A stretch of DNA of 61,667 bases, from contig JAFGIX010000080.1 in assembly GCA_016929395.1 (NCBI GenBank), positions 1-61,667 of the forward strand, read 5' to 3'. Positions 25,037 through 48,868 of this stretch are shown here, piece after piece. The DNA comes from Candidatus Zymogenus saltonus (GTDB taxonomy: Bacteria; Desulfobacterota; Zymogenia; Zymogenales; Zymogenaceae). The translations under genes and the position numbers were made by a program. Below the pieces are notes generated by a model. The model saw only the letters and a program-made list of their open reading frames with translations. It was not told the origin of the DNA and searched no databases. Position 1 is the first letter of the stretch, and each line of letters starts with the position of its first letter.

Positions 25037-25112
25037 TGGTGCGCCCGGCAGGACTTGAACCTGCGGCCCCAGCGTCCGGAGCGCTGTGCTCTATCCCCTG
25101 AGCTACGGGCGC
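25037..25112 (-). tRNA. tRNA-Arg (anticodon CCG)
   Basis: A full cloverleaf on the minus strand: acceptor stem GCGCCCG/CGGGCGC, D stem GCTC/GAGC, anticodon stem CAGCG/CGCTG with loop CTCCGGA (anticodon CCG, reading CGG), T stem GCAGG/CCTGC with TTCAAGT loop, discriminator A, and an encoded CCA. All stems are perfect. 76 bases. Confidence 0.97.
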
Positions 25113-27976: not shown

Positions 27977-28723
27977 TCAGTTATCTGCCCATATATTTGG
28001 CTTAAACAGGTTTTTCGACATTATCTCTTTTTTGATTTTTATTGCCCTATCGTATGAACTAGCATTGTTTGTACTTATATATGTGGGACCGGTCAAAAAG
28101 CAGTAGGGAATTTTGACGCCGATATAGCTTAAGGTACGTAGGGATCTTCTGTAGTTCATGTCGTCTATTTTTAAGTTGTACTTAAAATTAGTTTTTAGAA
28201 ATTTCTCAAATCCAATATCGGTAAAATTTCTTAGATGGGGATTTTCCCACTCCTCGCATTTATGCCAGTAAACAGTTTCAGACTTTCCGAGCATTATTTT
28301 CATCGTCCTAAAAAAACCATACTCATTGGGGACGTGGCTTAACAGGTAGCCTTCATTATTGAGTACGGACTTTATTAGATTCAACGTATTTATGGGGTAT
28401 AAAACATGTTCAAAAACATCCGAGCATATTGCGATATCGAATTTCCTGTTTACATCCAAATTTTCCGCACTGTTTAAATCTATGCAATGGAAATCGATCC
28501 CTTTCTCTTTATACATTTTCTCCAATTTATGGTTTGCGTCAATCCCGCAAACGTCTTTGGCAACCTTGGAGACCTCGAACAAGAAAGCGGGGTCCCCGCT
28601 GCCAAATTCTATAACGGAATCAACATTGAACGAGGAAATCAATTTTAGGTATAGTTTTCTCCATGTATTGATGCCCTTCAGGGTGTTATACTTAATATTT
28701 ATATCGATAATGTTGTCTGGCAT
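27977..28723 (-). CDS. Class I SAM-dependent methyltransferase
   Basis: A 248-residue Rossmann-like methyltransferase. Motif I reads VIEFGSGDPAFLFE, the acidic ribose-binding end of strand 2 is CGIDANHK, and motif IV is FDIAICSDVFEHV, as in the methyltransf-11/23 groups that modify small molecules or glycans. The C-terminal 90 residues are Asn/Tyr-rich, probably forming the acceptor lid. The codon use is markedly AT-rich compared with the core genes outside the cluster. Within a glycan cluster the likely job is O-methylation of a sugar, but the substrate is unknown. Confidence 0.8.
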   Translation of the reverse strand: MPDNIIDINIKYNTLKGINTWRKLYLKLISSFNVDSVIEFGSGDPAFLFEVSKVAKDVCGIDANHKLEKMYKEKGIDFHCIDLNSAENLDVNRKFDIAICSDVFEHVLYPINTLNLIKSVLNNEGYLLSHVPNEYGFFRTMKIMLGKSETVYWHKCEEWENPHLRNFTDIGFEKFLKTNFKYNLKIDDMNYRRSLRTLSYIGVKIPYCFLTGPTYISTNNASSYDRAIKIKKEIMSKNLFKPNIWADN

Positions 28724-28755: not shown

Positions 28756-29793
28756 TTATTTTCTTTTCCCGGCGAGAAACAGACCTATTGACTGTTTCAA
28801 TTGGGATTTGAAATCACTCAATAAAAGCCTCCATTTTTTTTTGAGATGCAGAGCCGCGAAGTACCGCGAAACGTCGCCGAGCATTTTTTCGGGTACTATG
28901 TCATATTTTGAAGCGAGATATTCTTTAACAGAAGGCCTTTGCATTATAAACAATGAGTGATCCACATAACCATACGCAAGTGCTATAAATGAGGCCTTGA
29001 GCAGTATTTCTATTTCTTCCGATGTACCGTCCGGCATAATATCGGGATCTTTGAAGTACAGGACATCTCCGTGCATAAGCTGACCGCGAGAATAGGGAAA
29101 TTGTCCCTCAGACAATAGGGGGAGCTTGACCTTTGTGGTACGGCGCCAGTGATGCTGCTCCAAAAACATCATGGGAATGAAACCAAGATCTCTGAGAGAG
29201 CCGTCCAGGTCTTTGAATGTACACTGATTTATATAAAAAGGATAGAACATCACTTCAATTCTGACGACAAGAATCCTGTTTTTTAGTAACTGCTTCCCAT
29301 TATTGATAATATCCATCTCCGAGCCTTGTACATCGATTTTCATGTAGACGGCATCGGTCAAGTTGTACTTTTCTGCAACCTTGTCAAGCGATACAGTTTC
29401 TATTTCAACAGTCTTTTCGAGTTGATAATAGTCCCCCCTTGAAAACGATTCGGCTAATTCGACGTCCGCCTCAAGCAGTGAGCTGCAGCCCCTGTTGCTG
29501 TATATATTTAAGGATTGCTTTTTCTTGTTTTTACCCAGTGCAATCGGCAAATATTTTAGAGAGCGCCAGGGGATTTCCATTTCCGATGTCAGCTTATTCA
29601 TCTTGTCGCATTCGGCTTTATCCGCTTCAAAGCCGACGGCGTCAACGGCAAAAGCCATTGGCAGCAGATCCTCGACAAATCCCCCCCGGCTGCCGATATC
29701 AAGACATTTCATCGGATGATCGAGAAGTAGTTTTCTTAATTCCGATGACCCTAAACATTGATTTTTCATTTTATATATTATCTCAAAAAACAT
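28756..29793 (-). CDS. FkbM-family methyltransferase
   Basis: A 345-residue protein with the FkbM-type SAM fold. Motif I is CLDIGSRGGFVEDL, the strand-2 acid is AVGFEADKAEC, and the diagnostic VYMKIDVQGSEMDIINNG follows near residue 150. FkbM enzymes methylate hydroxyls on sugars or polyketides. A basic, Leu-rich C-terminal about 100 residues (KKKWRLLLSDFKSQLKQ) is extra to the minimal fold. ATG 29793 is used; TTG 29799 is two codons upstream. Flanked closely by genes on the same strand, so part of the cluster operon. Confidence 0.82.
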   Translation of the reverse strand: MFFEIIYKMKNQCLGSSELRKLLLDHPMKCLDIGSRGGFVEDLLPMAFAVDAVGFEADKAECDKMNKLTSEMEIPWRSLKYLPIALGKNKKKQSLNIYSNRGCSSLLEADVELAESFSRGDYYQLEKTVEIETVSLDKVAEKYNLTDAVYMKIDVQGSEMDIINNGKQLLKNRILVVRIEVMFYPFYINQCTFKDLDGSLRDLGFIPMMFLEQHHWRRTTKVKLPLLSEGQFPYSRGQLMHGDVLYFKDPDIMPDGTSEEIEILLKASFIALAYGYVDHSLFIMQRPSVKEYLASKYDIVPEKMLGDVSRYFAALHLKKKWRLLLSDFKSQLKQSIGLFLAGKRK

Positions 29794-29823
29794 TGCCAAA
29801 AGTATCTATTTCTTTACGAGCTA

Positions 29824-31370: not shown

Positions 31371-32036
31371 TTATTGCTCTTTCTTCTCGATCAAAAACAT
31401 GAATCGATACGGCTCGTTGTCCGTATATGCCGTTTTCCCGATGTATTGAAATTTCCAGCCCGTAGATCTCGATACGAGTTGACCTACCCAATTATTTATC
31501 GATTCAAAATCGTTATCGACGGCAAAGACCCTCTCTCCCTTGCAGTATTTTCTATTGATACTGCTCGGCTCAAAAAAGAGCCTGCCTTTACATATCTTCA
31601 AAAGGTCGTCGAATACCTCATATCCCTTTTCTATGCTGAATTTTGAGCATATCTCCTGAAAGATCGATAACAGGAAGATCACGTCGAATTTTGGAAATTT
31701 CTTGACGTTTTCCGGGGTTATTCCACCTTCGGAGAAGAAGACGTTGTTCAGGCCCTCTTTTCGTGCTGTTCCGACCGCATAGTCTATCGCATTTTCGAGC
31801 AGATCGAATCCCCATGCGAACCAGCCTTTTTTTGCGGCGTTTATTGTGAAAAATCCCTCATTACACCCGATGTCCAGCACTGTGCCAGGATTTTCTGGGA
31901 GATTTGCCCTAATAATCTCCCATTTCGACCGCGCCCTTTCCATATTCTTCCTTTGATGTGAAACCTTTAAAATCCTGGTATTATATTGACCTATGAGAAA
32001 TAGGGGGATCTTTCTGATTTTTTTCAGTATTTCCAT
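31371..32036 (-). CDS. Class I SAM-dependent methyltransferase
   Basis: A 221-residue methyltransferase with motif I VLDIGCNEGFFTINAAKKG, strand-2 acid WGFDLLENAI, and a motif-IV stretch FDVIFLLSIFQEI. The N-terminal KKIRKIPLFLIGQYNTRIL helix may bind acceptor or membrane. The fold fits small-molecule or glycan methylation; the ending YRFMFLIEKKEQ is a typical last strand. It lies 67 bases upstream (in map terms) of the two kinase-fold genes. A WbdD-like pairing of methyltransferase and kinase in glycan chain termination is possible, though this is inference. Confidence 0.8.
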   Translation of the reverse strand: MEILKKIRKIPLFLIGQYNTRILKVSHQRKNMERARSKWEIIRANLPENPGTVLDIGCNEGFFTINAAKKGWFAWGFDLLENAIDYAVGTARKEGLNNVFFSEGGITPENVKKFPKFDVIFLLSIFQEICSKFSIEKGYEVFDDLLKICKGRLFFEPSSINRKYCKGERVFAVDNDFESINNWVGQLVSRSTGWKFQYIGKTAYTDNEPYRFMFLIEKKEQ

Positions 32037-32103: not shown

Positions 32104-32967
32104 CTAACACTTTTCCTTCAGTCTTCCAACGAGCTCCCTCGAATAGTCCAGCCTTCCCCTTAACTGGATTTTTAAAATAAATGGAAGACCGGAATAACTC
32201 TTGAGATAATATGCAGCAAGGCGAATCAGATTTCCGATAACGATGAATTGTTGGTGATCAAAGATGAATCGTGCTCCACCGGAATTAAGGTATGCATCCT
32301 TAAAAACGTCCCTGTCTATTACTTTGTAGATCGGACCACCCAAGAGAAACTCCCCTGTAACCCGGCCTTCTTGAAAAGAACCCATGTCGATCAGAAACAG
32401 TTTCTTTTCCTGTGTAAAAATATAATTTGAAGGCTTATTGATGTCGGCGTAGACCATACTGGTGCGAATTACATCCGGTTTTATCGAGAGATACTTCCCC
32501 CAGATTTCTTCTGCACTCTGATCGTCAATGGCATTTTGGCTTCTAAGAAAATCCAGGTTCCCTTTGATTTCGGCTAAATATTCCTCCGGTTTGTAACCAA
32601 CTTTTCTGTTGTGCAGATCCGCAAGTATCTCACCAAATGCCCGGGCAAAATCCGCTCCTGAAATATCCGGGGATCTCCCCTTAATAAATTCCAATAGAAT
32701 GACATCATCATTGGAAAAAATAATTTTTGGCACATAGTCCAGTTCGTTGAAGATGTCCATTTTTTTTTGAATACGGACAAGTTTTTTGTTTCCCTTCTCG
32801 GCCCGTAAAAGCTTATAGATCCTGTTATCCTTTGTTATAATCTTATACACCGAAGGCTGCCTTGCTTCCGGCCGCTTCAGGTTGTTTCTTATCCTCTTCC
32901 TCAGAGATATCAGGTGATATGATTTGAAATCACTGCCGATAATGTCGCAAAGCCCCTTTGTCTTCAT
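32104..32967 (-). CDS. Protein-kinase-like (aminoglycoside phosphotransferase-type) protein
   Basis: A 287-residue protein with a kinase-like fold. The N-lobe has RIYKLLRAEKGNKKLV with candidate ATP-binding Lys residues, a hinge with VILLEFIKGRSPD, a catalytic loop VYADINKPSNYIF that keeps the Asp and Asn of H-x-D-x5-N (His replaced by Tyr), and a metal-binding LFLIDMGSF. This arrangement occurs in small-molecule, LPS-core and glycan kinases (WaaP/APH-like). The likely reaction is ATP-dependent phosphorylation of a sugar. Its ATG overlaps the TGA of the adjacent kinase-fold gene by four bases (ATGA), so the pair is translationally coupled. Confidence 0.7.
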   Translation of the reverse strand: MKTKGLCDIIGSDFKSYHLISLRKRIRNNLKRPEARQPSVYKIITKDNRIYKLLRAEKGNKKLVRIQKKMDIFNELDYVPKIIFSNDDVILLEFIKGRSPDISGADFARAFGEILADLHNRKVGYKPEEYLAEIKGNLDFLRSQNAIDDQSAEEIWGKYLSIKPDVIRTSMVYADINKPSNYIFTQEKKLFLIDMGSFQEGRVTGEFLLGGPIYKVIDRDVFKDAYLNSGGARFIFDHQQFIVIGNLIRLAAYYLKSYSGLPFILKIQLRGRLDYSRELVGRLKEKC

Positions 32968-33632
32968 GTTCCCTTCTTTCTAATCATCCCAAGTTTTGAA
33001 AGCAAGTAGGTTTTTACCTTCCTGTAATGATACTTCTCGACATCGATCAACCGCCTTTTTGACAACTCGACGAATTCGTCAAGACAGCGCACATTGTTTA
33101 TTCTTTTCATTTTTGGATTTTGATAGATATTCTCAAGGAGTATCTGATGGAAGTACTCGTTGACAAAAGTGTACTCGAAATCCAACAGGAAAAGCTTATC
33201 CATTTCTACTTGATAAATTAGCTCTTTCGGCGATGTATACAGACAGTTTATGTTGTTCTTGTATAAAAACGAATCTATATGGATTATATGATCTATAATA
33301 CGGTTAAGATCATATTCGGAACAATTTTCAAGAATCTCACATATATCGATACCTTCTATCCTTTCCAATGTGATCGACTGTAAATCGATATCGTAGGCTA
33401 TGAGATTCGGGACGAATTCAGCACCGATTTTTTTAAACCTCTCGTAGGCTTCTAATTCACGGAGGAATTTCACCCTCTGAAGAGGGAAATTCCCGATATT
33501 TGTATGGTATGATTTTTTTACATAATCAGCGTGTATTTCTATCGAGACATCGGTAGAGGTTGTTCTTGTTTCCATAATTGAAGATGTACAGGGTTTTATA
33601 TAAAATTGCGGGGGAATTGTTTTCACCACCAT
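32964..33632 (-). CDS. Kinase-fold protein, apparently missing catalytic residues
   Basis: A 222-residue protein related in layout to its neighbour. It has an N-lobe with LQRVKFLRELEAYERFKK, a hinge with ITLERIEGIDICEIL, and a terminal LFLLDFEYTF that lines up with the metal-binding Asp strand. Where the neighbour has Y-A-D-I-N-K-P-S-N, this protein reads N-C-L-Y-T-S-P-K-E, so the catalytic Asp and the metal-binding Asn appear replaced (Leu and Glu). By eye it looks like a pseudokinase, perhaps a regulatory or scaffold partner of the active-looking protein coupled to it by the ATGA overlap. ATG 33632 lacks a clear ribosome site. Confidence 0.6.
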   Translation of the reverse strand: MVVKTIPPQFYIKPCTSSIMETRTTSTDVSIEIHADYVKKSYHTNIGNFPLQRVKFLRELEAYERFKKIGAEFVPNLIAYDIDLQSITLERIEGIDICEILENCSEYDLNRIIDHIIHIDSFLYKNNINCLYTSPKELIYQVEMDKLFLLDFEYTFVNEYFHQILLENIYQNPKMKRINNVRCLDEFVELSKRRLIDVEKYHYRKVKTYLLSKLGMIRKKGT

Positions 33633-33673: not shown

Positions 33674-34327
33674 TTATCCTGTATTAGATACTTTCCTTAA
33701 GCTACGTAATATACTATTCCTCAATAAAGTATGCAAATAGTATCTCATAGAATACGATCTCACAACATATTTCGGCGATGTTATATAGGTCAAATTATCC
33801 ACGTATCGCCCAGGGACTTCGATTTTATGTGGGCCCTCGATAATATGGGCGCAAGTATCGGAATACTTGCTGTAAAATTGGATTGTTTTCTCCGTAATGG
33901 TTCTTTGAGAAAAACAGTTCAGAACAAGGTCGAATTTGCCGTCCACTTCAAGATCCTTCCCCTCATAGGCCTGAACGAATTTTACCTCTTCAAAAAGCTT
34001 CTTTCCGATGGAGATAAATTCGGGGATGATCTCTACTCCGGTGACGTCAAATCCATACACCGCCATTATCCAGGAGCCTACGCCGAATGCGCATCCATGG
34101 TCCATTATTCTCTTCGCTCCGATCGACCTTGCGAGCTTCACAAAACGCTTATAATAGTACCAGACATCTCTGATGACGTGGATATTTGCATACGGATTCC
34201 AATGCTTGTAATAATTGAGCTGGCTGTCAAATCGGAACGTTAGATTATTGTCTATTTGTCTTTCACGAAGCCAGGAGATCCATTTGTTGTAATCCTTGAT
34301 CATTATTTGCAGTTCTTTTGGCGTCAT
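33674..34327 (-). CDS. Class I SAM-dependent methyltransferase
   Basis: A 217-residue methyltransferase with motif I RIMDHGCAFGVGSWIMAVYG (His in place of the usual acidic-Leu combination), a strand-2 acid in VTGVEIIPEFIS, and motif IV FDLVLNCFSQRTI. The N-terminal YNKWISWLRERQIDNNLTFR region is polar and helical. Small, AT-rich, no membrane segment. It sits between the ABC exporter and the kinase-fold pair, so a role in decorating or capping the glycan before export is plausible. Substrate unknown. Confidence 0.75.
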   Translation of the reverse strand: MTPKELQIMIKDYNKWISWLRERQIDNNLTFRFDSQLNYYKHWNPYANIHVIRDVWYYYKRFVKLARSIGAKRIMDHGCAFGVGSWIMAVYGFDVTGVEIIPEFISIGKKLFEEVKFVQAYEGKDLEVDGKFDLVLNCFSQRTITEKTIQFYSKYSDTCAHIIEGPHKIEVPGRYVDNLTYITSPKYVVRSYSMRYYLHTLLRNSILRSLRKVSNTG

Positions 34328-34443: not shown

Positions 34444-36183
34444 CTACAAGTACATTAAGCTGTTTAAGGTATTTCCTTCCAGCTTTATCCTGTTGATCTT
34501 GCCGTTTTTTACCTGATACAGGTAGTCCGCTATCTCAACCAATTCCGGCAGGTGTGAAATTGCGATAATGGTTGTTTTGGAGCGCAGTCTTTTAAGTGTA
34601 TTACACAACTCCATGGCCGTCTTGGGATCAAGGGATGAAGTAACTTCATCGAGGATTAGCAATGTAGGATTTCTGACTAAGGCCCTTGCGATCGCGATTC
34701 GCTGACGCTGTCCCCCGGAGAGCTTCCCACCCCTTTCTCCGACGACCGTCTCGACTCCTTTCGGCAGGGAAGACACAAAGTCCCAACATTCCGCGTCTTT
34801 CAAAGCTTCATTAACGTCACCGATTGATAGATAAGGATCCCCCAAAGTAACGTTGTTATATATAGTGTCGTGAAATAGGATCATCTCCTGGGGAACGTAC
34901 CCTATCATCTGCCGCCAGGATTTCATGTTGATTTTGGCCAAAGGGATTTTATCGATCCAGATATCACCCGATTGGGGCCTCAAGAGACCGGTGATGAGGT
35001 CTATAGTGGTTGTTTTGCCGGCGCCCGAAGGCCCAACCAATGTGTAAAAACGATTTTTTTCTATTTCTATATTAACGTTATCAAGAATGTTGTTCTGACC
35101 GTATGAAAAGCTGACATCAGCAAATCTAATGGATTCCTTTAGCTTGGGAGTTACACCGTCCTTATTCAATACAGTCTCTTTTTCTGCTTTTAGATTCTCT
35201 ATTATTCTGTTTAAAGACCAATACGCGCTCTCCGATCTTGCAAGGAATTGATAATTAGTCTGCAAAACCCCGATGTTTTTGATCATCCGCCAGAAGAGAA
35301 TCCCGAGTATCATAATGTTGTCGAATTGCATTTTCCACATGGTGACTAAAACGTAAATACCGCATACCAGCGCGAGCACGATGAATGGTTCGTGAAAGGA
35401 TGTCAAGGCATGATTGCTGATGATCCTTTTTTGGTGGGCCTTCATCAGTTTATTCACACCCGATTCGAGGATCGGCTCCAGGCGGTCTTCCATGGCCATC
35501 GTTTTTAAGGGCTTTATCCCCTGAATCATATCCGTTATGAATGATGTGATCGTTTTAAACGATTTAGTCTGTTCTCTCCCGGACTGGCGGGCCATCTCAA
35601 CCAGCCAGCCGAAAGAGAATAGAATAACAATCCCAAAGATAAAGGCGGCAATCGTAACCTTCCAGGATAAGAGGAGGGCCAAGACCGCATAGACAATGAT
35701 CTGAATGATGTCGGCCATAAATTTGCATATCATGACATAGGAGCTGCCCGCTTGTTCCGCCTCTGTGGTGATGGAGTTGATAAAAAACCCCGCAGGTTGG
35801 CTGACAAAATACTCCCATCTCGTCTTCAAGAGGGCCTGAAATAGAGAGATGCGGTGATCCTTGGATACTTGGGCGGCAGTGAATCCGACCTGCCTCATAG
35901 CGATGAAAGTCAGAAAACCCTTTAATGTAATCAGCAAAACAATTATTACTAAAAGGGATAAGAGATTTGGCTCAAAATTGAAAAAGGAAAAAAGTTTATC
36001 TATCCATAGTTTTAATGTGCTGTTGTTGTTTGGTTCAGTGCTGATTGTGAGCTGTATTACCGGAAGCAAGCCCACAATACCGATGCTTTCAGAGAGGGTG
36101 GCTACAAATAACAAAGCCACGATAACCGCGGTATACCTCGGGTATTTGGATGTTAGTTTGGTGATCAAGGAGATGGTTTTCAT
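34444..36183 (-). CDS. ABC transporter, fused permease and ATPase (MsbA/PglK-like)
   Basis: A 579-residue half-transporter with the permease and ATPase in one chain; a homodimer would move lipid-linked cargo across the inner membrane. About six membrane helices occupy residues 15-300. The ATPase has Walker A GPSGAGKT (Lys390), signature LSGGQRQR near residue 487, Walker B LLILDEVTSSLD, and the switch His in AISHLPE. This architecture is shared by MsbA and the glycan flippase PglK, and differs from the separate Wzm/Wzt pair of classical ABC O-antigen export. It is the only transport gene in the cluster, so it is the best candidate flippase for the glycan. Confidence 0.88.
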   Translation of the reverse strand: MKTISLITKLTSKYPRYTAVIVALLFVATLSESIGIVGLLPVIQLTISTEPNNNSTLKLWIDKLFSFFNFEPNLLSLLVIIVLLITLKGFLTFIAMRQVGFTAAQVSKDHRISLFQALLKTRWEYFVSQPAGFFINSITTEAEQAGSSYVMICKFMADIIQIIVYAVLALLLSWKVTIAAFIFGIVILFSFGWLVEMARQSGREQTKSFKTITSFITDMIQGIKPLKTMAMEDRLEPILESGVNKLMKAHQKRIISNHALTSFHEPFIVLALVCGIYVLVTMWKMQFDNIMILGILFWRMIKNIGVLQTNYQFLARSESAYWSLNRIIENLKAEKETVLNKDGVTPKLKESIRFADVSFSYGQNNILDNVNIEIEKNRFYTLVGPSGAGKTTTIDLITGLLRPQSGDIWIDKIPLAKINMKSWRQMIGYVPQEMILFHDTIYNNVTLGDPYLSIGDVNEALKDAECWDFVSSLPKGVETVVGERGGKLSGGQRQRIAIARALVRNPTLLILDEVTSSLDPKTAMELCNTLKRLRSKTTIIAISHLPELVEIADYLYQVKNGKINRIKLEGNTLNSLMYL

Positions 36184-37211: not shown

Positions 37212-38069
37212 TTAAATAAATGTCCACTCAATAAGAGATAGAGGATTCAGCGGGTTTAATCCAATCACATTTTCTTTTTGGTCGACAATTCTGATTTTAT
37301 CTTCTCGACTTTTTAGTTCGAATAATAAATCCCTGTTGTAATCATTGATTTGGGTATAGCGACGACGCATCATGCCGAAAAGCGTTTCATCGTAGAACTC
37401 GTAAACAGGCTCGAAGTGATATACACGATCAATCCTATCTCTGTATTTCGAGAGCACAGTTAAAAAGTGTTTTGCAGATGGAAGCTGCTCCACGGCATGA
37501 AATGTAAAAATAACGGCGGGCTTTTCCAATGCCTCGAGGATTTCATAGACTTGATCGTAGAAGTTAAACCTCACTACATTTAAATTAGGGTCACTTTTAT
37601 AAAGATGATTCGCCAGGCTGACGGCGTTTTCGGAAAACTCCCCTCCGGTGTATTTTATATTAGGAGCGATTTTATGCAATCGCCATAAATTGTACCCATG
37701 CCCACAACCCAATTCAAATATGTGATCAACTCTTTTGGTGCACTTACTTAAAACATCGCGAAGAAAATTATATAACAGCTTGCGGGCACTGTTTAAATCG
37801 GTTTCAAACAGGTTCTCGCCCCTTGAAATACAGATTTTGGTATCCGGATACAGGTTGTAATAGGAATATTCATGTATTCTGACTTCTTCGGGGCTCAGCG
37901 GATGGTCTTTACTCATATAATATTCAAGAATCTCTGAATACTTTCCATCGTCGTATTCTTTCTTTACCTTATCTATAGTGCGTTTTGCGGCCTTCCACTC
38001 GGATAAGCCCAGTAGTCTATCCGGCCATTGGGTCCACTTGGGAAGGTCATTTAATTTAATCTTTTTCAT
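37212..38069 (-). CDS. Class I SAM-dependent methyltransferase-like protein
   Basis: A 285-residue protein with motif I HIFELGCGHGYNLWRL, a strand-2 acid replaced by TGGEFSENAVSLA, and VIFTFHAVEQLP in the motif IV position, giving a methyltransferase-type core. The N-terminal about 110 residues (EWKAAKRTIDKVKKEYDD, YSYYNLYPDTKICISRGE) are an additional acceptor or dimer region. Whether it is catalytically a methyltransferase is less certain than for its neighbours. The 180-base gap to the cytidylyltransferase gene downstream shows no terminator. Confidence 0.7.
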   Translation of the reverse strand: MKKIKLNDLPKWTQWPDRLLGLSEWKAAKRTIDKVKKEYDDGKYSEILEYYMSKDHPLSPEEVRIHEYSYYNLYPDTKICISRGENLFETDLNSARKLLYNFLRDVLSKCTKRVDHIFELGCGHGYNLWRLHKIAPNIKYTGGEFSENAVSLANHLYKSDPNLNVVRFNFYDQVYEILEALEKPAVIFTFHAVEQLPSAKHFLTVLSKYRDRIDRVYHFEPVYEFYDETLFGMMRRRYTQINDYNRDLLFELKSREDKIRIVDQKENVIGLNPLNPLSLIEWTFI

Positions 38070-38441: not shown

Positions 38442-39110
38442 TTACAAGTTAAAATATTTGAAAAAGGTTCTATATGCACTTTCTTCCGACGGCCTGATCT
38501 CCAAGTTTGGAGATCTCCCGGAAACAATACAATCGCCCTCAACGTCTTGATCGCATATATAAGTATCTGCCGAAACAAGTGTGTTTCCACCAATCGTTGA
38601 TTCCCCTATCACGGAAGACCTGGGAAATAAAAAGACTCTTCCCTCGAAAGCGGGATAAATGCCGTGATTGTTTCCTATTGTGCAGTTTTGAGCGATAATG
38701 AGATAATCGGCGTATTTTGCACGACCTATTACCGTTCCGACACAGTGAGTAAACATGAAGATATCGGGGAGCTCGACTTCATAATAGACATCTATGGCGT
38801 GCAGCGCCTTGTTGAGACAATACACCTTTTCCGAAAGATGGGGCGTCTCCTTCTGTTTATATAGAGAACTGCTCAACATGTATAGAAACATTGAATACTG
38901 ATCCGAGCAGAGGTGATTAAAAATGGTGTCCTTGCCGTCGAAAAAGTACTTTGAGTGGATATTCGAAAAACAGTATTCTATGCGCTCGAGTGTACTCTTT
39001 ATAGGCGAGGAGAGCTCCATCGGCTTCACTTCATTCCTGTCGGGGAAGAAATTGTTCAGCTGCCTTGCAAGATATTCGGTCAGCTCCTCTGTCGAAAGTG
39101 ACATACGCAT
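38442..39110 (-). CDS. Serine-acetyltransferase-like (left-handed beta-helix) acyltransferase
   Basis: A 222-residue protein with an alpha-helical N-terminal half and a C-terminal left-handed beta-helix. Hexapeptide-type repeats run from about residue 120: FTHCVGTVIGRAKYADYLIIAQ, then CTIGNNHGIYP, then SSVIGESTIGGNTLVSADTYI. The His of THCVGT and NNHGIYP are candidate catalytic residues; SAT-like enzymes use a His-Asp pair to move an acyl group from acyl-CoA. In this cluster it is a candidate for the missing N-acetylation step of the Pse pathway (usually done by the GNAT protein PseH) or for another acylation of the glycan. ATG 39104 is an alternative start. Confidence 0.75.
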   Translation of the reverse strand: MRMSLSTEELTEYLARQLNNFFPDRNEVKPMELSSPIKSTLERIEYCFSNIHSKYFFDGKDTIFNHLCSDQYSMFLYMLSSSLYKQKETPHLSEKVYCLNKALHAIDVYYEVELPDIFMFTHCVGTVIGRAKYADYLIIAQNCTIGNNHGIYPAFEGRVFLFPRSSVIGESTIGGNTLVSADTYICDQDVEGDCIVSGRSPNLEIRPSEESAYRTFFKYFNL

Positions 39111-40105: not shown

Positions 40106-40924
40106 CTATGATCGCATATTTTTTGCTTCGATCATTATAACCCACTTTTCATTGATAAAACTTGGAAAATTCTTGAAATGCTCGTCCAATAGTTCTTCTA
40201 TTATTCGCTTCTTTTTGGGATCGTAAAAGGTGGAGTTCTTCCAGTATGTAATAAATTCGCCGGGTGCTTCCCAACGGACTTCATTAACGACCGTGCTTAT
40301 ATTTACGGTTTCAAAATGCTTTGAAAACCATGGTATGGCCTTACTGTGCATAAATTCCGAGCTTACATATTTCACACTGTCCGGTATTATTACTTCACCT
40401 TTTTCTAAAAAATCATAAACCTGGTTGTTATTTGGACCGAATGGGCCTATAACAACGAATTTTCCCGTCGGCTTTAACCAGGACTTCGCTTCTTTTAATA
40501 ATTCTTTTAAATTATTACTGTAATACAAACCATATGAACAAAATATCAAATCAAAATAGGGCGGAGAAATATGTTCATTCTTCAAAGCAATATGAAATAC
40601 ATCCATTTCCGATTCGATGATCGTTACACTTTTACGCAGCCCGGGCTCTATTTTTCCCGATAGTTTTTCCAGTGCTTCCCGGGAGACATCAAGGGCGAAT
40701 ATATGGCCGTTTACACCGGCCAGATTGGCTAAATGAAGTGTTTGAGTTCCGACACCGCAGCAGAATTCAAGTATATTAGAGCCCTCCATGATTTCTGTCT
40801 TGTCAAAAATCCATTCAACCAGATCGATTTTTTGGAAGTTAATATTTTTTGCCAAGCGTTCCTCAAGCATTTTTGCATTTCTTGCTTTTTTTAGAATCAT
40901 TTTATCATTCATGTTTCGTCTCAT
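40106..40924 (-). CDS. Class I SAM-dependent methyltransferase
   Basis: A 272-residue methyltransferase. Motif I is ILEFCCGVGTQTLHLA, the strand-2 acid lies in IFALDVSREALEKL, and motif IV is FDLIFCSYGLYYSN, followed by LLKEAKSWLKPTGKFVVIGP, the standard post-motif strand. Its ATG overlaps the stop of the pseI-like gene by four bases (ATGA), so it is translated with it. That coupling suggests it acts on the nonulosonate or its precursor, for example by O-methylation, but this is inference. AT-rich codon use. Confidence 0.8.
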   Translation of the reverse strand: MRRNMNDKMILKKARNAKMLEERLAKNINFQKIDLVEWIFDKTEIMEGSNILEFCCGVGTQTLHLANLAGVNGHIFALDVSREALEKLSGKIEPGLRKSVTIIESEMDVFHIALKNEHISPPYFDLIFCSYGLYYSNNLKELLKEAKSWLKPTGKFVVIGPFGPNNNQVYDFLEKGEVIIPDSVKYVSSEFMHSKAIPWFSKHFETVNISTVVNEVRWEAPGEFITYWKNSTFYDPKKKRIIEELLDEHFKNFPSFINEKWVIMIEAKNMRS

Positions 40925-41970
40925 CCTATAAGCTCCCAGGTTAGGGGGGTGCCCTTTTCGATATCCCTCGCCGCCCGGCGGCCTGTTATCACCTCGAGAT
41001 ATCTGGTATGTAGTCCGTGGCCGGGACGGATCGAGCGTACATTCTCGGAGGTGAAGAATTCTCCGGCCTTTATATCTTTGACTACGAATAACGAGCGCCT
41101 GAAGACTTGGTTTTCCTTTTCCTTATCGGTTAAATTGTAATCAACCGAGCCGATCGCATTTTCTATTGTCCTTATTCCTTCTACTGTCGATCTGAGCTCA
41201 TGGGGCTCCAGGGAGAAGGTGCTGTCCGGCCCTTGAAGATCCCTCGAAAGCGTGAAATGTTTTTCTATGATACATGCCCCCAACGCAACCGCCGCAATGG
41301 GAACGGATATTCCCAGGGTGTGGTCGGAAAGCCCCACCGGGACCCCGAAGGCCTCTCTCATGTGGGGGATCGTCCTCAGGTTCATCTCTTCCGGCGGGGC
41401 GGGATACGCGCTCACGCAGTGAAGAAGCGCCAGCTCCAAGCAGCCCGCCTCCCTTATCGTTTTCACGGCCTCGTCTATCTCCGACAGCGTCGCCATGCCC
41501 GTTGACATTATTACCGGTTTCCCTGTTTTACCTATTCTTTTTAGCAGCGGTATATCGACGACTTCAAAGGAGGCCACCTTATATGCCGGGACATCCATCT
41601 CTTCGAGGAATTCAACAGCTGAATCATCAAAGGGAGTAGAAAAGAGGGTTATCCCCAGATCATCGGCAATTTTTTTCAGCCTGGGCTGCCATTCCCATGG
41701 CATGTGTGCTTCACCGTACAGGTCGAAGAGATTGCGATCCTCCCAAATGGTCCCTTTGATTTTAAAATAATCCTTATCGCTACTGATTGTCAGTGTATCC
41801 GCCGTATACGTCTGCAGCTTGACCGCGTCCGCTCCGGCCTCCTTCGCTGCTTTTACTATTTTGACGGCCTGATCAAAATCCTGATTGTGATTTGCGGACA
41901 TCTCTGCGATGATATAAACGGGCAAGTCGAGACCGATCGATCTGTCGTTGATTTCAATCGCTTTTATCAT
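40921..41970 (-). CDS. pseI: Pseudaminic acid synthase (PseI/NeuB family)
   Basis: A 349-residue nonulosonate synthase that condenses phosphoenolpyruvate with a hexose derivative to form the nine-carbon acid. The barrel begins with YIIAEMSANHNQDFDQA, carries DAVKLQTYTADTLT, STPFDDSAVEFL and KVASFEVVDIPLL, and has ALLHCVSAYPAPPEEMNL and GLSDHTLGI near the active site. The C-terminal SAF/antifreeze-like domain (RRSLFVVKDIKAGEFFTSEN onward) is complete. With PseB, PseC and PseG in the same operon, PseI is the best subfamily call over sialic- or legionaminic-acid synthases. Confidence 0.92.
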   Translation of the reverse strand: MIKAIEINDRSIGLDLPVYIIAEMSANHNQDFDQAVKIVKAAKEAGADAVKLQTYTADTLTISSDKDYFKIKGTIWEDRNLFDLYGEAHMPWEWQPRLKKIADDLGITLFSTPFDDSAVEFLEEMDVPAYKVASFEVVDIPLLKRIGKTGKPVIMSTGMATLSEIDEAVKTIREAGCLELALLHCVSAYPAPPEEMNLRTIPHMREAFGVPVGLSDHTLGISVPIAAVALGACIIEKHFTLSRDLQGPDSTFSLEPHELRSTVEGIRTIENAIGSVDYNLTDKEKENQVFRRSLFVVKDIKAGEFFTSENVRSIRPGHGLHTRYLEVITGRRAARDIEKGTPLTWELIG

Positions 41971-42005
41971 ACTAAATTTGCCTCTTCAATGGTTTTTGAA
42001 CGAAA

Positions 42006-43013
42006 TCAGCGAGGAGACCATTCTTCGATAGGGGTAAATCCATCCCCGAAATCAATCAATTCGTGTAAAAAGCGGCAAAACTTGATCTTTTTATAGGGGA
42101 GATCGGGTTTTTTTGGTTCTATGCCCAAGGCCAGCTCCAGGGACCACTCCAGATCGATAAATCCGCAGGCGGCCCTTGCAGCTACAAGGCTTGAAAAGCG
42201 GGGATTGATTTCAAGAAGCCGGACTCCCTTCGAGCTCTTTCGCACCTGTATATTGGCGCTTCCTTTTAAGCCAGTCAAAGATGCTATTCTCAAGGCATAG
42301 TCGATTACGGACTTATCCGATGATGTTTCGGCGAACCATGAAGCACCTGAAGGCCCCAGATCACGTTCATAGGCTATGGCTGTGGTAAAACCGTCACAAA
42401 CGAAGACGCCTACAGAAAACTCGCCTTCGGAGTCGTCAATAAATGCCTGTGCAATCTTCGAATCTGCTTCTTTCTTTGCTAAAACAAGCTCTTTATCATC
42501 GTTTACTATTTTGAGAAAACGTGATCCGCTTGAACGACGCAGTTTGATAACGATCGGAAAGTCGGTCTCCTTTATTAGTTCATCCAATGATTGAGAATTG
42601 GAAACGTCTGCAAACGGTGCCAATTCGATCCTGCCCTTTAAGGCTTGCATACATGTGAGCTTATCTCCATATTTGTTTAACCATTCAGACTCCTGGCATA
42701 TAACAGGTATACGGCCATTCAGCATGGGAGGATCTCCTATTTCGCTGAGGGTGTACATCTCGATCTCCGTGCCTGGAATCACAGCATCAATTTTGTATGT
42801 ATCGCATAGGTTTTGCAGGGTATCAATATATGATGGATTATGAGCAGTGGGAACTACGTGAAAGCTGTCTACGAAAACGCTCCCCACGCCCTTGACATCG
42901 CAATCGCATCCATATATCTTGATCGGCTTTTTACTCAACCGTAACGCCTTTACGAGAGCCTGCCCGAAGTCTCCACCTACTCCTGTAATTAGAACATGAA
43001 TTGCCTCAGCCAT
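42006..43013 (-). CDS. ATP-grasp domain protein (carbamoyl-phosphate-synthase-like)
   Basis: A 335-residue ATP-grasp ligase. The N-terminal Rossmann-like part contains VLITGVGGDFGQALVKAL. The ATP-grasp part carries FPIVIKLRRSSGSRFLKIV (ATP-binding Lys), a GEFSVGVFVCDG strand, and RLLEINPRFSSLVAARAAC with the metal-binding Glu-Asn. Such proteins form amide or acyl-phosphate bonds with ATP, often joining an amino or carboxylic acid to an amine. A role attaching a side chain to the amino groups of the nonulosonate is plausible. It overlaps the phosphoesterase gene by eight bases, so it is coupled to it. Confidence 0.8.
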   Translation of the reverse strand: MAEAIHVLITGVGGDFGQALVKALRLSKKPIKIYGCDCDVKGVGSVFVDSFHVVPTAHNPSYIDTLQNLCDTYKIDAVIPGTEIEMYTLSEIGDPPMLNGRIPVICQESEWLNKYGDKLTCMQALKGRIELAPFADVSNSQSLDELIKETDFPIVIKLRRSSGSRFLKIVNDDKELVLAKKEADSKIAQAFIDDSEGEFSVGVFVCDGFTTAIAYERDLGPSGASWFAETSSDKSVIDYALRIASLTGLKGSANIQVRKSSKGVRLLEINPRFSSLVAARAACGFIDLEWSLELALGIEPKKPDLPYKKIKFCRFLHELIDFGDGFTPIEEWSPR

Positions 43014-43704
43014 TTCTTTTTAAAACCTCGACTAAATACGGGACATTCTCATCGTGCTTCATGGCGTCGTCAATAATGATTTCTGGGTCATAATGAACAC
43101 GTCTGTGCTTAACCTCTCCAGAATCAATATCAAATATCGCATAACTTGCAGCGCTTATACCATCTCTCGGTTGTCCAACCGAGCCCGGATTGATAATGAG
43201 CTTATCTTTGTATCGCTTGAAAAAAGGATAATGTGTATGCCCCAGCAGTATCACGTCTCCGGCCACTTCCTGAAAACGTTCCCAGTCCTTATAGTCCGGG
43301 TATATTCGGCCATTGAGAGGGTCCCAGGGTGTGCCGTGATACAAATTGAATGAGATCCCGTTTACTTCCTTTTTCAATGATAATGGAAACGATTTTAATA
43401 GTGATATTGACGATGGAGATAAATCTCTTAAGGCTCTTGTAAGACCCGTACCGTACTTTTTTTCGTATTCATAGCCCGGACCGATCCCGTTCTCTATACA
43501 TTCCAATAATATGATGTCATGATTTCCACAAATACTTGTTATGCGATTCCTTTCCCAAATGGAAATGCAATCTTCAACGAACGGATAATATCCGCATAAA
43601 TCGCCCAGAAAGAAAATATTGTCCGCTTCATTGAACAGCAGCGCCATCACCTTTTTAAATGCAAAGCTGTTTCCATGAATGTCCGATATAATGCCGATTC
43701 TCAT
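43006..43704 (-). CDS. Calcineurin-like metallophosphoesterase
   Basis: A 232-residue phosphoesterase of the YfcE/MJ0936-like group. Metal-binding residues occur in order: D-x-H in IISDIHGNSF, GDLCGY, GNHD, and H-x-H-like LGHTHYPF, with NPGSVGQPRDG closing the fold. It should hydrolyse a phosphomonoester or diester; in this cluster a sugar phosphate is likely. ATG 43704 overlaps the stop of the SDR gene as ATGA, so I prefer it to ATG 43722. The adjacent ATP-grasp gene starts before this one ends. Confidence 0.85.
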   Translation of the reverse strand: MRIGIISDIHGNSFAFKKVMALLFNEADNIFFLGDLCGYYPFVEDCISIWERNRITSICGNHDIILLECIENGIGPGYEYEKKYGTGLTRALRDLSPSSISLLKSFPLSLKKEVNGISFNLYHGTPWDPLNGRIYPDYKDWERFQEVAGDVILLGHTHYPFFKRYKDKLIINPGSVGQPRDGISAASYAIFDIDSGEVKHRRVHYDPEIIIDDAMKHDENVPYLVEVLKRNG

Positions 43705-44579
43705 TGAATATTCACTACCCATTCCGGCCTGTTTTCCCAGATCGTCATCAGCTCTTCCGAAAAGGGTTTTAAAAGGGGAACAAACTCCGGGCTCTGTTTA
43801 TAAATAACTTCGTCCGAGCCGCCGTCATCCTGCCATATCACCGACAGTTTGGACCCGGGCAAATGTTGTACCGCCTCAACGAAAAAACGTGTATCTATAA
43901 CGTCTCTTCCGGCCCCCAGGAAAAGCCCCGGAATACGGTTTTCCCCGAGATACAAAATACAGTTTGCGGCCTCCCGTGCAGATATATAGTTTCTCCTGCT
44001 TTTGAAGCGCTTTACGATAGGCTTCGATTCGGGCGGTACCTCACGAACGGCCGCCAGTAAAAGCCTGTTCCAGAACAATGTGGGGCTTTTTTGCCATCCC
44101 CAGATACCTGATAATCTCACGATAGCCCTTCGCTCCCACGATATCATGTTCCTCAATATATGCTCCGCCGTCAATTTGCCGATGCCGTAAAAAGTCGTCG
44201 GGTTGCACGGCGTGGCGATATCGGCATAGGGGATATCATCATATACGCTTACTGTACTGACGAATATTGAGAAACCAATGCCCGTATCCTTTGCCCATGA
44301 GGCAACATTAATTGCCATTAAAGTGTTATCGATTAAGCCGTCAGCCGAGTCCCATTCCACAACGGCCGCGGCGTGAATGAGTACGGCTTCTTTTGGCTCG
44401 GCAATATGAATCTTCTTCTCTAATGCCTCCTTTGCACCGGGCAAGGTCAAGTCAATTCCGCCCTGACGGGGTGAATATACGGGAATAATTCTTGAATCCG
44501 GAGACGACTCCGATAGAGCCTTAACGATATTCCGGCCCAAAAACCCGGACGCACCTGTAATCACGAAAGTTGACGTCAC
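43701..44579 (-). CDS. NAD-dependent epimerase/dehydratase family protein
   Basis: An extended short-chain dehydrogenase/reductase of 292 residues. The NAD(P)-binding Gly motif GASGFLG is at the N-terminus, the catalytic STVSVYD Ser and Tyr-x3-Lys pair YGIGK lie in the middle, and an R-L-S-G-I-W-G stretch completes the substrate lobe. These enzymes epimerise, dehydrate or reduce nucleotide sugars. GTG 44579 is the start and the stop overlaps the phosphoesterase start. It may supply an additional sugar or modify the nonulosonate precursor; the specific reaction cannot be deduced. Confidence 0.82.
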   Translation of the reverse strand: MTSTFVITGASGFLGRNIVKALSESSPDSRIIPVYSPRQGGIDLTLPGAKEALEKKIHIAEPKEAVLIHAAAVVEWDSADGLIDNTLMAINVASWAKDTGIGFSIFVSTVSVYDDIPYADIATPCNPTTFYGIGKLTAEHILRNMISWERRAIVRLSGIWGWQKSPTLFWNRLLLAAVREVPPESKPIVKRFKSRRNYISAREAANCILYLGENRIPGLFLGAGRDVIDTRFFVEAVQHLPGSKLSVIWQDDGGSDEVIYKQSPEFVPLLKPFSEELMTIWENRPEWVVNIQ

Positions 44580-44617
44580 CGATAAGTCCCTTTTACTGCC
44601 AAGTCCTTATTCCCGCT

Positions 44618-45544
44618 TCATTCCGAAATCTGTGCAAAAAAGGTAATATTACGGCCCAGTTCCGAGCTAACTATTTTCCTGTAGAAAGACCTTCGAAGAT
44701 CACCCGGAAGCGACATCTCGAAATCTTTCCTCTTTTTATGGCACATTTTCCCTAAACTTCTATCCTTGACGTAATTATAACCCAACAGGAGAAATAGTTC
44801 CATCGGAAAGTCCGCCAGTCTTTCGAGAACGACAAATCCCAATTTCTGCAGGAATGAATTAAGGGTGTCGATATTAAAATAGTTGACATGATCCGGAATG
44901 GCGACCCACCAGCGATCTTCATGGATGACTTTCGTCGCCAGCTCTTGAATAAGGGAGAAATCATTGGGGACCTTGATACAAACGATACCTTTTTTCGGTT
45001 TCAGTAAGGACTTTACCATGTTTAAAAATTCATCGGGATGGGGAACATGTTCGAGAACGTTCATAAGGAGTATTGCGTCAAAAATCCCTTTAAAGTTTCC
45101 ATGTTCTTTTACAAATTCATCGAAAAAGCAATTATATATGACCAGCTTCCCTTGTGTCCCGTAATGTTCGGTCGCCTCCGCGGACGGCTCAATCCCCATT
45201 GCATCCCAACCCTTATCGACCATGAAGCTCAACAGGTCCCCCGTACCGCATCCCACCTCCAAAATCCTCCTGGAGTCTTCTCCCGGCAAAAGGTCTCTCA
45301 GTATATGATCGATATCGCTGTAAAAGGTTTTTTGAAGCCATTCGACCTCGCTTTTTGTCTCATCGCTGCGTTCATGCAGGCGTTTTATCGATTCAGCACC
45401 CTCTCCTTTCTTTATGAGATCGTAATAGCTGCTTTTATAATAGTCGGCCAGATATTCCTTTGTGGGGACAGGGTCTATTCTCATATACCCGTATTCAGGA
45501 TCTTTAATAACGCTGTATTTGCCCTTCTCAAAATTGGAACTCAC
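44618..45544 (-). CDS. Class I SAM-dependent methyltransferase
   Basis: A 308-residue methyltransferase with motif I RRILEVGCGTGDLLSFM, strand-2 acid in AMGIEPSAEATEHY, motif IV FDAILLMNVLEHVPHPDEFL, and a VCIKVPNDFSLIQ strand after it. The N-terminal 70 residues (YMRIDPVPTKEYLADYYKSSYY) resemble the extra region of glycan-associated methyltransf-23 proteins. GTG 45544 is chosen because GGAG lies six bases upstream; TTG 45556 would overlap that site. It sits next to pseG, so an early glycan or precursor substrate is likely. Confidence 0.8.
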   Translation of the reverse strand: MSSNFEKGKYSVIKDPEYGYMRIDPVPTKEYLADYYKSSYYDLIKKGEGAESIKRLHERSDETKSEVEWLQKTFYSDIDHILRDLLPGEDSRRILEVGCGTGDLLSFMVDKGWDAMGIEPSAEATEHYGTQGKLVIYNCFFDEFVKEHGNFKGIFDAILLMNVLEHVPHPDEFLNMVKSLLKPKKGIVCIKVPNDFSLIQELATKVIHEDRWWVAIPDHVNYFNIDTLNSFLQKLGFVVLERLADFPMELFLLLGYNYVKDRSLGKMCHKKRKDFEMSLPGDLRRSFYRKIVSSELGRNITFFAQISE

Positions 45545-45610
45545 TTTTTTCTCCAATCAAGACTTACCGTGTACTTTCTGTTCTTATACATAGTGATATA
45601 ATTATACAAA

Positions 45611-46669
45611 TTATATAGGAGCTTTTTTTGATACAAGAGCGGATATTACCCTTTTTACTCCATCTCCATCGACAAGCTTGTTGCCGTTTTTTTTCATAGA
45701 CAAACGATCCTCGTAGCTATTTAATAAACTATATACTGATTCCGCGATTTCTTGAGGAACAACCCGACTGCAAAATCCCAAGCTTATTCCCGCGCCCTTT
45801 TCGGAAACTCCAAGTGCCGCCCCTCTCTGATTATCGACAAGCACAACGATAATGGCCGGGAGTCCCATGAACGCCAGCTCCCAGACCGTGCTTCCGCCGG
45901 CCGATATCGCCAAGTCCGCCCATGCCATAAGTTCCGGCATGTTGGTTACATTCCTCTCAAGCCTTATAGAGAAAGGGGCGCCGGTGACTCTTGACTTTAA
46001 GTCCTCATAGTGGGGATTCTCTCCCCCAATCACGACCATAGCTTCAATGTCCCTCAATTTCAGCAGCGACAGGGCTTCCAGTACCTTCATCGTACAGTTG
46101 TCGGGATCGCTTCCCCCCATGGTGATCAATATCTTTTTCGCAACCTCCGGGATCTCCCGCCCATATCCCCGCCGTTTAAGAAACTCCCTCCTCAGGAGAA
46201 CATAATCCGTGCCGAGGAGGAGCACCGTGTACGGCTCCCTTTTCTTATATAATTCCTCATGGGCCTGGATATTCTGATTCAATACGATGTCGGCATAATA
46301 GTGATCGGCGTGACCGTAGTCATCCAAAAAAAGGAGCCTTTGTCCCGTCTCCTTTATTATCCTCTGATAACGAGCGTCGAATCGATATCCGTCAACCACG
46401 ATCCAGTCGGCCCCGCTTGCCCTCGCGAAATCGGCCGTTTTGACCGCGTCTTTGTCTCCCCCCGGGTCGGCAGAGATAACCTCCACCTCCATTCCCTCCC
46501 CTCTCCACCTTTCTCTTACGCTCGCCGTCTCTTCCCCCAGGAGGAGGACGACCCTCCCGCCCCTGTCCTGCCATCCCTGGGCCAGGGCGAGGCAGCGCAT
46601 GACGTGTCCCGAGCCGATTCTGGTGTTGCCGTCAGCGCGGATAACAAGCGTTTGACCCGATAGATCCAT
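45611..46669 (-). CDS. pseG: UDP-2,4-diacetamido-2,4,6-trideoxy-altropyranose hydrolase (PseG)
   Basis: A 352-residue GT-B-like hydrolase that removes UDP from the bis-acetamido sugar in the pseudaminate pathway. Family marks include RADGNTRIGSGHVMRCLALA at the N-terminus, VVDGYRFD, GTDYVLLRREF, ITMGGSDPDNCTMKVLEAL, and the UDP-binding ISAGGSTVWELAFMGLPAI. Length agrees with known PseG/SpsG proteins. It lies 24 bases from pseC and shares its transcript. Its G+C content is closer to the core genes than the AT-rich methyltransferase genes of the same cluster. Confidence 0.9.
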   Translation of the reverse strand: MDLSGQTLVIRADGNTRIGSGHVMRCLALAQGWQDRGGRVVLLLGEETASVRERWRGEGMEVEVISADPGGDKDAVKTADFARASGADWIVVDGYRFDARYQRIIKETGQRLLFLDDYGHADHYYADIVLNQNIQAHEELYKKREPYTVLLLGTDYVLLRREFLKRRGYGREIPEVAKKILITMGGSDPDNCTMKVLEALSLLKLRDIEAMVVIGGENPHYEDLKSRVTGAPFSIRLERNVTNMPELMAWADLAISAGGSTVWELAFMGLPAIIVVLVDNQRGAALGVSEKGAGISLGFCSRVVPQEIAESVYSLLNSYEDRLSMKKNGNKLVDGDGVKRVISALVSKKAPI

Positions 46670-46693
46670 CGAAGATATTTCTAAAATTTACAA

Positions 46694-47836
46694 TCAAGCC
46701 GCGCCCTCTATTACCTCGGAGATCACCCTCTCCACGTCCCCGTCGCTCATGGAGGGGAAGATGGGAAGCGAGATGATCCGCTCGTAGGCGTCTTCACTAA
46801 CGGGGCAGAGTCCCTTCCCGGTTCCGAGATTATCCCTGTAATAGGGCTGAAGGTGAACGGGAATGTAGTGTACGTTGACGCCGATCCCCCTGGATCTGAG
46901 CCCGGTAAATATCTCCTCTCTTCCTTTTTTCAGTAGATCGAGGTTCAAAAGGATTACGTACAGGTGATATGAGTGGGAGACATCGGGTCTTACGGCTAGC
47001 GGTTTGAAATTGGACTGCTCACTAAAGGCCTCGTCGTATCTTTTGGCGATCTCCCGTCTCTTTTTTACCCAGCCGTCCAATTTTTTCAGCTGGCTTAGTC
47101 CAAGGGCGCACTGAAAATCCGTTATCCTGTAGTTGTATCCCAGGCCGACCATCTCGTATATCCAGGTGCCCTTCTCGGAGCGCTCTTTCTGGTCCGTGTC
47201 GATCCCGTGGTTTCTGAATATCCTCATCCTCTCGGCGAATTCAAGATTGTCCGTCGTTACCATGCCCCCCTCGCCGGTTGTGATATGTTTTACGGGATGA
47301 AAGCTGAACGCGGTCAGGTCCGCGATGCTCCCCACGCTGCGGTCCTTATATGAGGCCCCGAGGGCGTGGCAGGAATCCCCGACGAGTACAAGCCCGTGAC
47401 GATTCGTTATCTCTTGAACGGCGTCATAGTTACAGGGCTGCCCGGCATAATCGACGCAGACAACGGCCCTGGTCTTTGGAGTTATCTTTTCTTCGATTTG
47501 AGCGGGATCGATAAGGAGGGTATCCTTCTCGACGTCGGCGAAGACGGGCATTCCCTTTTGATATACAACCGTGTTGGCTGTTGCAAGAAAGGTCATCGGG
47601 GGCACGATCACCTCGTCGCCGGCCTCGATCCCTATTGCGTACATGGTGGCGTGGAGGGCCGCTGTTCCGCTGGAGAAGGCCACGGCGTGTCTTGCCCCGA
47701 CTTTTTTTGCAAATTCGTTCTCGAAGGTCCCGATCATCGGGCCGGTCGTCAGCCAATCGGAGCGGAGCACCTCCTCGACGGATTGGATATCGTCCTCGTC
47801 GATAGATTGCCTTCCATAAGGGATATACTTATTCAA
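46694..47836 (-). CDS. pseC: UDP-4-amino-4,6-dideoxy-N-acetyl-altrosamine transaminase (PseC)
   Basis: A DegT/DnrJ/EryC1-type PLP enzyme of 380 residues that transfers an amino group from glutamate to the 4-keto sugar made by PseB. The N-terminal IPYGRQSIDEDDIQSVEEVL, the AFSSGTAALHA block and LVGDSCHALGASY (PLP-binding Asp) are typical, and the Schiff-base Lys is residue 183 in SFHPVKHITTGEGG. GYNYRITDFQCALGLSQL is another family signature. Start TTG 47836 has GGAG upstream and overlaps the end of pseB by eight bases, so the first two pathway enzymes are translationally coupled. Confidence 0.93.
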   Translation of the reverse strand: MNKYIPYGRQSIDEDDIQSVEEVLRSDWLTTGPMIGTFENEFAKKVGARHAVAFSSGTAALHATMYAIGIEAGDEVIVPPMTFLATANTVVYQKGMPVFADVEKDTLLIDPAQIEEKITPKTRAVVCVDYAGQPCNYDAVQEITNRHGLVLVGDSCHALGASYKDRSVGSIADLTAFSFHPVKHITTGEGGMVTTDNLEFAERMRIFRNHGIDTDQKERSEKGTWIYEMVGLGYNYRITDFQCALGLSQLKKLDGWVKKRREIAKRYDEAFSEQSNFKPLAVRPDVSHSYHLYVILLNLDLLKKGREEIFTGLRSRGIGVNVHYIPVHLQPYYRDNLGTGKGLCPVSEDAYERIISLPIFPSMSDGDVERVISEVIEGAA

Positions 47837-48836: not shown

Positions 48837-48868
48837 AATCCCTTTTTTACTCACATTAAAGGAAACAA

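Follow-up and report, generated by a model that had tools for sequence, protein, structure and literature searches.

What might a pair of overlapping kinase-like genes, one of which appears to have lost the residues of its catalytic loop, be doing within a glycan gene cluster? The question is raised by the genome of Candidatus Zymogenus saltonus (assembly GCA_016929395.1), from which we have analysed positions 1-61,667 of contig JAFGIX010000080.1; this whole stretch of 61,667 nucleotides is referred to below as the window. The two genes are designated P1 and P2 (Table 1).

The gene pair and its glycan cluster

Both open reading frames proved to lie where the original prediction had placed them, and they share the ATGA stop/start overlap that it had described. 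The 3' end of P2 reads ...GGA ACA TGA, and the ATG within it is the start codon of P1. P1 has a good Shine-Dalgarno sequence (AGAAGGGA-AC-ATG), and no good one was found near the start of P2 itself. Given the gene order on the minus strand, P2 (the degenerate gene) is transcribed first. The overlap implies that translation of the two genes is coupled, from which the formation of a P1-P2 complex does not follow. The G+C content of P2 (36%) was the lowest among the genes compared.

Table 1. Coordinates of the two kinase-like genes, their motifs and their main neighbors in the window.
Feature	Position	Strand	Description	Basis
P1	32104-32967	minus	287 aa, divergent kinase-like; catalytic Asp175, Asn181 and metal Asp194 intact	
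P2	32964-33632	minus	222 aa, apparent pseudokinase of the Bud32/ArkI branch; kinase-like, with a degenerate catalytic loop	
ATGA	32964-32967	minus	stop/start overlap, P2 to P1	read from sequence
AGAAGGGA	32970-32977	minus	Shine-Dalgarno-like, for P1, within the last codons of P2	read from sequence
P1 YADINKPSN	32425-32451	minus	catalytic loop, residues 173-181	alignment to STPK loops with one-residue insertion
P1 LFLIDMGS	32377-32400	minus	metal-binding segment, residues 190-197	motif alignment
P2 NCLYTSPKE	33222-33248	minus	catalytic-loop equivalent, residues 129-137	alignment
P2 LFLLDFEY	33171-33194	minus	metal-binding segment, residues 147-154; DFE as in ArkI	alignment
P2 Lys39-Lys40	33513-33518	minus	putative strand-3 nucleotide Lys	by position; start of Bud32 profile match
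Class I methyltransferase gene	31371-32036	minus	downstream of P1	Pfam scan
Class I methyltransferase-like gene	33674-34327	minus	upstream of P2	Methyltransf_25, 22.7 bits, under gathering score
ABC half-transporter	34444-36183	minus	MsbA/PglK-like, not Wzm/Wzt	fused ABC_membrane+ABC_tran, Pfam scan
PseI	40921-41970	minus	pseudaminic acid synthase	above curated cut-off
PseG, PseC, PseB	45611-48854	minus		all above curated cut-offs

The pair is located within a pseudaminic acid cluster (25254-49907), as indicated by PseB, PseC, PseG and PseI, and it is flanked on both sides by methyltransferase-like genes, so that this part of the original prediction was borne out. As many as eight methyltransferase-like genes (27977-28723; 28756-29799, FkbM; 31371-32036; 33674-34327; 37212-38069; 40106-40924; 44618-45556; and 49155-49907, the last named from its sequence only) suggest that the glycan of this cluster is heavily methylated. 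Two glycosyltransferase-like genes (outside the Pfam scan) and a capsule-synthesis-like protein were also found. Another gene (38442-39110) encodes a 222-aa protein that gave no Pfam match at E<=0.001. Its C-terminal part does match models of serine acetyltransferases (EpsC/CysE), and the N-terminal region ahead of it is of no recognised kind.

A genome of the same family (G013) carries PseB, PseC, a methyltransferase, an epimerase, a metallophosphoesterase, an ATP-grasp gene and PseI in identical order (window 40921-48854 compared with L054:12975-19839 and L055:3-1013). Downstream of this shared core its genes are different, with neither P1 nor P2 among them, and P1 and P2 therefore belong to the cluster's variable half, the usual place for strain-specific modifications of the glycan. 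The low-G+C glycan cluster lies immediately next to a tRNA-Arg(CCG) (25037-25112). The tRNA end is not repeated anywhere within the window, and the integration of an island at this point is not supported. Elsewhere in the genome that carries P1 and P2, a second NeuB-family synthase (G000:C28:36126-37100, in L052/L053) falls under the PseI cut-off and lies near another PIG-L-like deacetylase and an aminotransferase.

Relatives of P1 or P2 were found neither in three genomes from their class nor in about 390 genomes of the phylum, including those of the genus and family, nor in plasmids, phages and viral contigs. The Pse cluster regions (fetched in part) of 48 other genomes were equally devoid of them. 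Two exact-pattern scans, which covered about 85,000 species genomes, were negative as well, a result limited by the few motifs used. The alignments A1-A5, whose only role was to steer the choice of degenerate motifs, were synthetic: positions other than the kinase motifs had been substituted at random, so that these are no biological sequences. One of the phylum genomes (G293) carries in its Pse cluster region an APH-type kinase (L014:6567-7739, HGDFCYQNILL...IVDFED), and kinases therefore do occur in such clusters.

Kinase motifs and ranking tests

P1 was expected to keep the catalytic-loop Asp and Asn together with the metal Asp, and it does: Asp175 and Asn181 are located in YADINKPSN and Asp194 in LFLIDMGS, in the order typical of kinases. 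The distance from Asp175 to Asn181 is of six positions, one residue beyond the standard D-x-x-x-x-N, a feature absent from the original prediction.

Single family matches of both proteins were all weak, with E-values between 1e-4 and about 1. In the case of P1 they always fell on catalytic or hinge segments, and included CotS (E=0.005), ABC1 (E=0.026-0.059, residues 165-201, Pfam) and the PD-T4-6 kinases (E=0.0028, residues 139-200, PADLOC). The catalytic segment also aligned to a rhoptry kinase and to an STPK locus carrying VVHNDVKPDNILF...LIDFG, which makes four independent searches (ABC1, PD-T4-6, rhoptry kinase and STPK locus) in which this segment was aligned to kinases. Identity of P1 with the PD-T4-6 defence system was rejected, the PADLOC match reflecting the kinase catalytic segment. 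Among the weak matches of P1, L004 is a true STPK; L003, L005, L009, L011 and L012 were inspected and judged to be non-kinases.

P2 matched Bud32 models (best E=1.6e-4, residues 38-153) far below their curated cut-off (20.9 bits vs 199), with the HxD..N and DFG motifs lost. Neither the reversed P2 nor a composition decoy (218 residues typed by hand from the composition of P2, not an exact shuffle) gave any kinase match. A database search with P2 brought up the PDB entries 8yv4/8yv5 at E about 0.2 (8yv5, E=0.19), the similarity extending over residues 49-211. The Smith-Waterman comparison of P2 with 8yv5, which had been preselected by that search (E=0.19), gave z=9.6, a score reached by none of 500 shuffles.

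Because these direct matches were weak, we have used ranking tests on the ORFs of the window and of the fetched loci (5,968) plus their reversed copies, 11,936 sequences altogether. A profile made of 8yv5 and TkArkI, without P2, ranked P2 first of the 11,936 (E=0.006; the next sequence had 0.6). An STPK profile built from eight HRD/DFG kinases, with neither P1 nor P2 included, put a genuine kinase at the head of the list (E=7.7e-16), followed by P2 (0.28) and then P1 (1.1), and retrieved nothing else under E=2. These scores are low, but it is very unlikely that the two proteins were ordered so high by chance. When P2 was added to 8yv5 and TkArkI (profile A9), the PDB matches were ArkI, Bud32, RIO2 and Ser/Thr kinases and the genome matches within the phylum were HRD/DFG kinases, although these matches are partly driven by the ArkI rows of the profile.

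Structure prediction was uninformative. AlphaFold2 models from single sequences, with no alignment, had a pLDDT of about 32 (32.5) for P2 and 36 for P1, and a Foldseek search with the low-pLDDT single-sequence model of P1 gave no significant match. That no fold was obtained in this way, and that every single match is weak, would agree with one or both proteins not having a kinase fold at all and their motifs resembling those of kinases by chance. This we consider improbable, since profiles containing neither P1 nor P2 placed both at the head of a ranking of about 12,000 sequences, with the matches in fold order. Of the earlier description of two kinase-fold genes, the kinase similarity thus holds beyond chance by profile ranking, and the fold itself is a putative assignment made from sequence. 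Altogether there is good support for both genes being probably of kinase ancestry.

Comparison with WbdD and with the ArkI/Bud32 branch

One likeness to WbdD, the O9a chain terminator, is that a kinase and a methyltransferase function are found next to each other among glycan genes. WbdD acts with a Wzm/Wzt transporter bearing a carbohydrate-binding module. In WbdD, the methyltransferase and the kinase form part of one polypeptide with a C-terminal coiled coil (PMC3482155), whereas here they would be separate genes, with another type of exporter and no sequence match. P1 and P2 did not match any methyltransferase model in Pfam, and the sole transporter scanned in the cluster is a fused ABC_membrane+ABC_tran protein. 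The lack of a methyltransferase fusion and the MsbA/PglK-like exporter make the WbdD-type analogy of the original prediction fail. We have also considered a split version of the terminator, in which P1 would phosphorylate the glycan at its non-reducing end, the phosphate would be methylated by a neighboring methyltransferase and P2 would act as a scaffold. The methyltransferase-like genes directly flanking the pair speak for it, but their adjacency says little given that there are eight of them in the cluster; the exporter is again of the wrong type, there is no fusion, and PDB searches with P1 or P2 brought up no WbdD-like sequences, all of which makes the split terminator very improbable. 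Membership in the WaaP/Kdo kinase, WaaY or APH families was rejected, since neither P1 nor P2 matched these family models in Pfam at E<=5 and their core regions did not match them at E<=10. The comparison proposed earlier with WbdD, WaaP and APH therefore found no counterpart by sequence. Instead, the closest detectable relatives of P2 are, at the level of sequence, the Bud32/ArkI kinases.

A way to assess what P2 has lost is to compare it with these relatives residue by residue. The 8yv4/8yv5 protein is a relative of TkArkI (E=1.8e-7) and both it and ArkI (COG2112; PDB 7vnx) are similar to P2 in length. TkArkI is an RNA kinase that phosphorylates tRNA, in which HGQ replaces HRD, DFE replaces DFG and Lys137 occupies the position of the Asn (PMC9095486). 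The mutations H130A, Q132A and K137A impair it severely, and D149A leaves it without activity (PMC9095486). P2 shares with ArkI a non-HRD catalytic loop, an Asp before this loop (D120 in P2), the helix-C Glu (E65 in ArkI, E59 in P2) and the DFE with its essential Asp (D149, matched by D151-F152-E153). The HGQ loop and K137 are missing, N129-C130-L131 and E137 taking their places in the best alignment, and there is no equivalent within residues 157-168 of P2 to the subdomain IX N-x-T of ArkI (N160/T162, KPNNLTS). P1 has Asp and Asn where the ArkI loop differs. The genomic contexts differ too, ArkI adjoining a tRNA-maturation gene and P2 lying in a glycan cluster. Bud32 is the KEOPS kinase and its partner is Kae1. 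Structures of Bud32 and RIO2 were retrieved by the profile A9, which contains P2 itself; P2 has lost the HxD...N and DFG of Bud32, and no Kae1 partner was found nearby.

The original prediction had aligned P2 over LFLLDFE, with Leu and Glu in place of the catalytic Asp and Asn, and we arrived at the same residues. In the least gapped alignment N129-C130-L131 stands at H-x-D, with Leu131 at the Asp, and E137 at the loop Asn, although the partner of this Asn varies between E137 and K136 with gap placement. The metal Asp151 (in LFLLDFE) and the helix-C Glu59 are kept. A pseudokinase is defined by loss of the strand-3 Lys, the HRD Asp and/or the DFG Asp (PMC12599244), and with Leu131 at the HRD Asp, P2 fits this definition by its residues; Asp151 is retained and Lys39/40 is assigned by position. 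The suggestion of a pseudokinase stands as regards these lost positions. The loss of Asp and Asn alone is however no proof, because ArkI, with HGQ and without the HRD Asp, is active (PMC9095486).

This precedent gives some substance to P2 being active after all, as an atypical kinase similar to ArkI that would use other residues of its loop, P1 and P2 being then separate enzymes acting at different positions or on different substrates. TkArkI is active with HGQ, Lys137 and DFE (PMC9095486), P2 has the DFE, the ArkI-type D120 and the helix-C Glu, and its K136 could meet K137 of ArkI if the gap were shifted. On the other hand, P2 has Asn and Leu in place of the His130 and Gln132 whose replacement by alanine severely impairs ArkI, the Asn/Thr of subdomain IX are missing and MAFFT alignments placed Glu137, not Lys136, opposite K137. 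We see an active P2 as unlikely, if still worth bearing in mind. A protein that is placed in the ArkI branch and yet does not have the ArkI catalytic signature is probably impaired in catalysis, although the case of ArkI prevents taking this as proven.

The three loops have one more trait in common. A six-step loop with Pro at the fifth residue is seen in P1 (DINKPSN), P2 (LYTSPKE) and 8yv5 (EMNHPDR), in spite of P1 and P2 having no similarity to each other. A lengthened loop common to the three proteins is suggestive only.

A possible glycan kinase with a proposed partner

Taken together, we put forward tentatively, as plausible rather than probable, that P1 is an active kinase modifying the glycan and P2 its coupled, non-catalytic kinase-like partner. 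Translational coupling would have the two proteins made together and in step. P1 would most likely be an ATP-dependent kinase acting before export and on the cytoplasmic side, where it would phosphorylate a hydroxyl group on either a sugar or a lipid-linked glycan intermediate. P2, which appears to keep nucleotide- and metal-binding positions (Lys39/40, Glu59 and Asp151) without the residues of the catalytic loop, would most likely scaffold or allosterically activate P1, or tie it to a neighboring transferase. What the sequence itself shows is the coupling of the two genes, the gain and loss of motifs, the kinase-like ranking of both proteins and the glycan cluster; the activity of P1, the inactivity of P2, their complex and the substrate are inferred. 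Our confidence in P1 as kinase and P2 as partner is tempered by the weak E-values, the lack of detected relatives and the low pLDDT of the models.

Interplay between active and inactive kinases in the synthesis of the bacterial envelope has been documented or proposed for CapB2/CapB1 and PknB/MviN (PMC3795738). Similar interplay, or a pseudokinase scaffold, is likewise documented or proposed for PtkA/PtkB and EcpK in envelope polysaccharide synthesis. However, CapB, Ptk and EcpK belong to the P-loop tyrosine kinases, which have another fold, and MviN is a large membrane protein.

P2 might also be a decaying duplicate or a functionless kinase remnant, kept open by chance and by its coupling to P1. 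It has lost its catalytic residues, no relatives were found, its start is without a good Shine-Dalgarno sequence and its G+C is the lowest compared (36%). But in the absence of selection, 222 codons with a G+C of 36% would be improbable as an open frame (we estimate about 1e-7), the similarity to 8yv5 spans residues 49-211 and the metal Asp and the helix-C Glu have been kept. The lack of similarity between P1 and P2 (z=-0.5) led us to reject a recent duplication as the origin of the two genes. A remnant therefore seems rather unlikely. We give about the same low credence to a far-reaching version of the kinase and partner model, with P1 and P2 as the founding pair of a Bud32/ArkI/RIO-related glycan-phosphorylating system, an active kinase and its dead nucleotide-binding sister forming an obligate heterodimer, both with one additional residue in the loop.

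At present, P1 and P2 are an orphan pair, with a putative kinase ancestry that is well supported at the sequence level. To our knowledge, the known active/inactive pairs in bacterial glycan assembly are either P-loop tyrosine kinases or PknB/MviN. If the model of an active P1 with a non-catalytic P2 is true, it would add a kinase-pseudokinase partnership of the ePK/Bud32 type to bacterial glycan assembly and would suggest the phosphorylation of a glycan containing pseudaminic acid. The tolerance of the ArkI/Bud32 branch to the loss of the HRD residues would also find a natural test in this pair.
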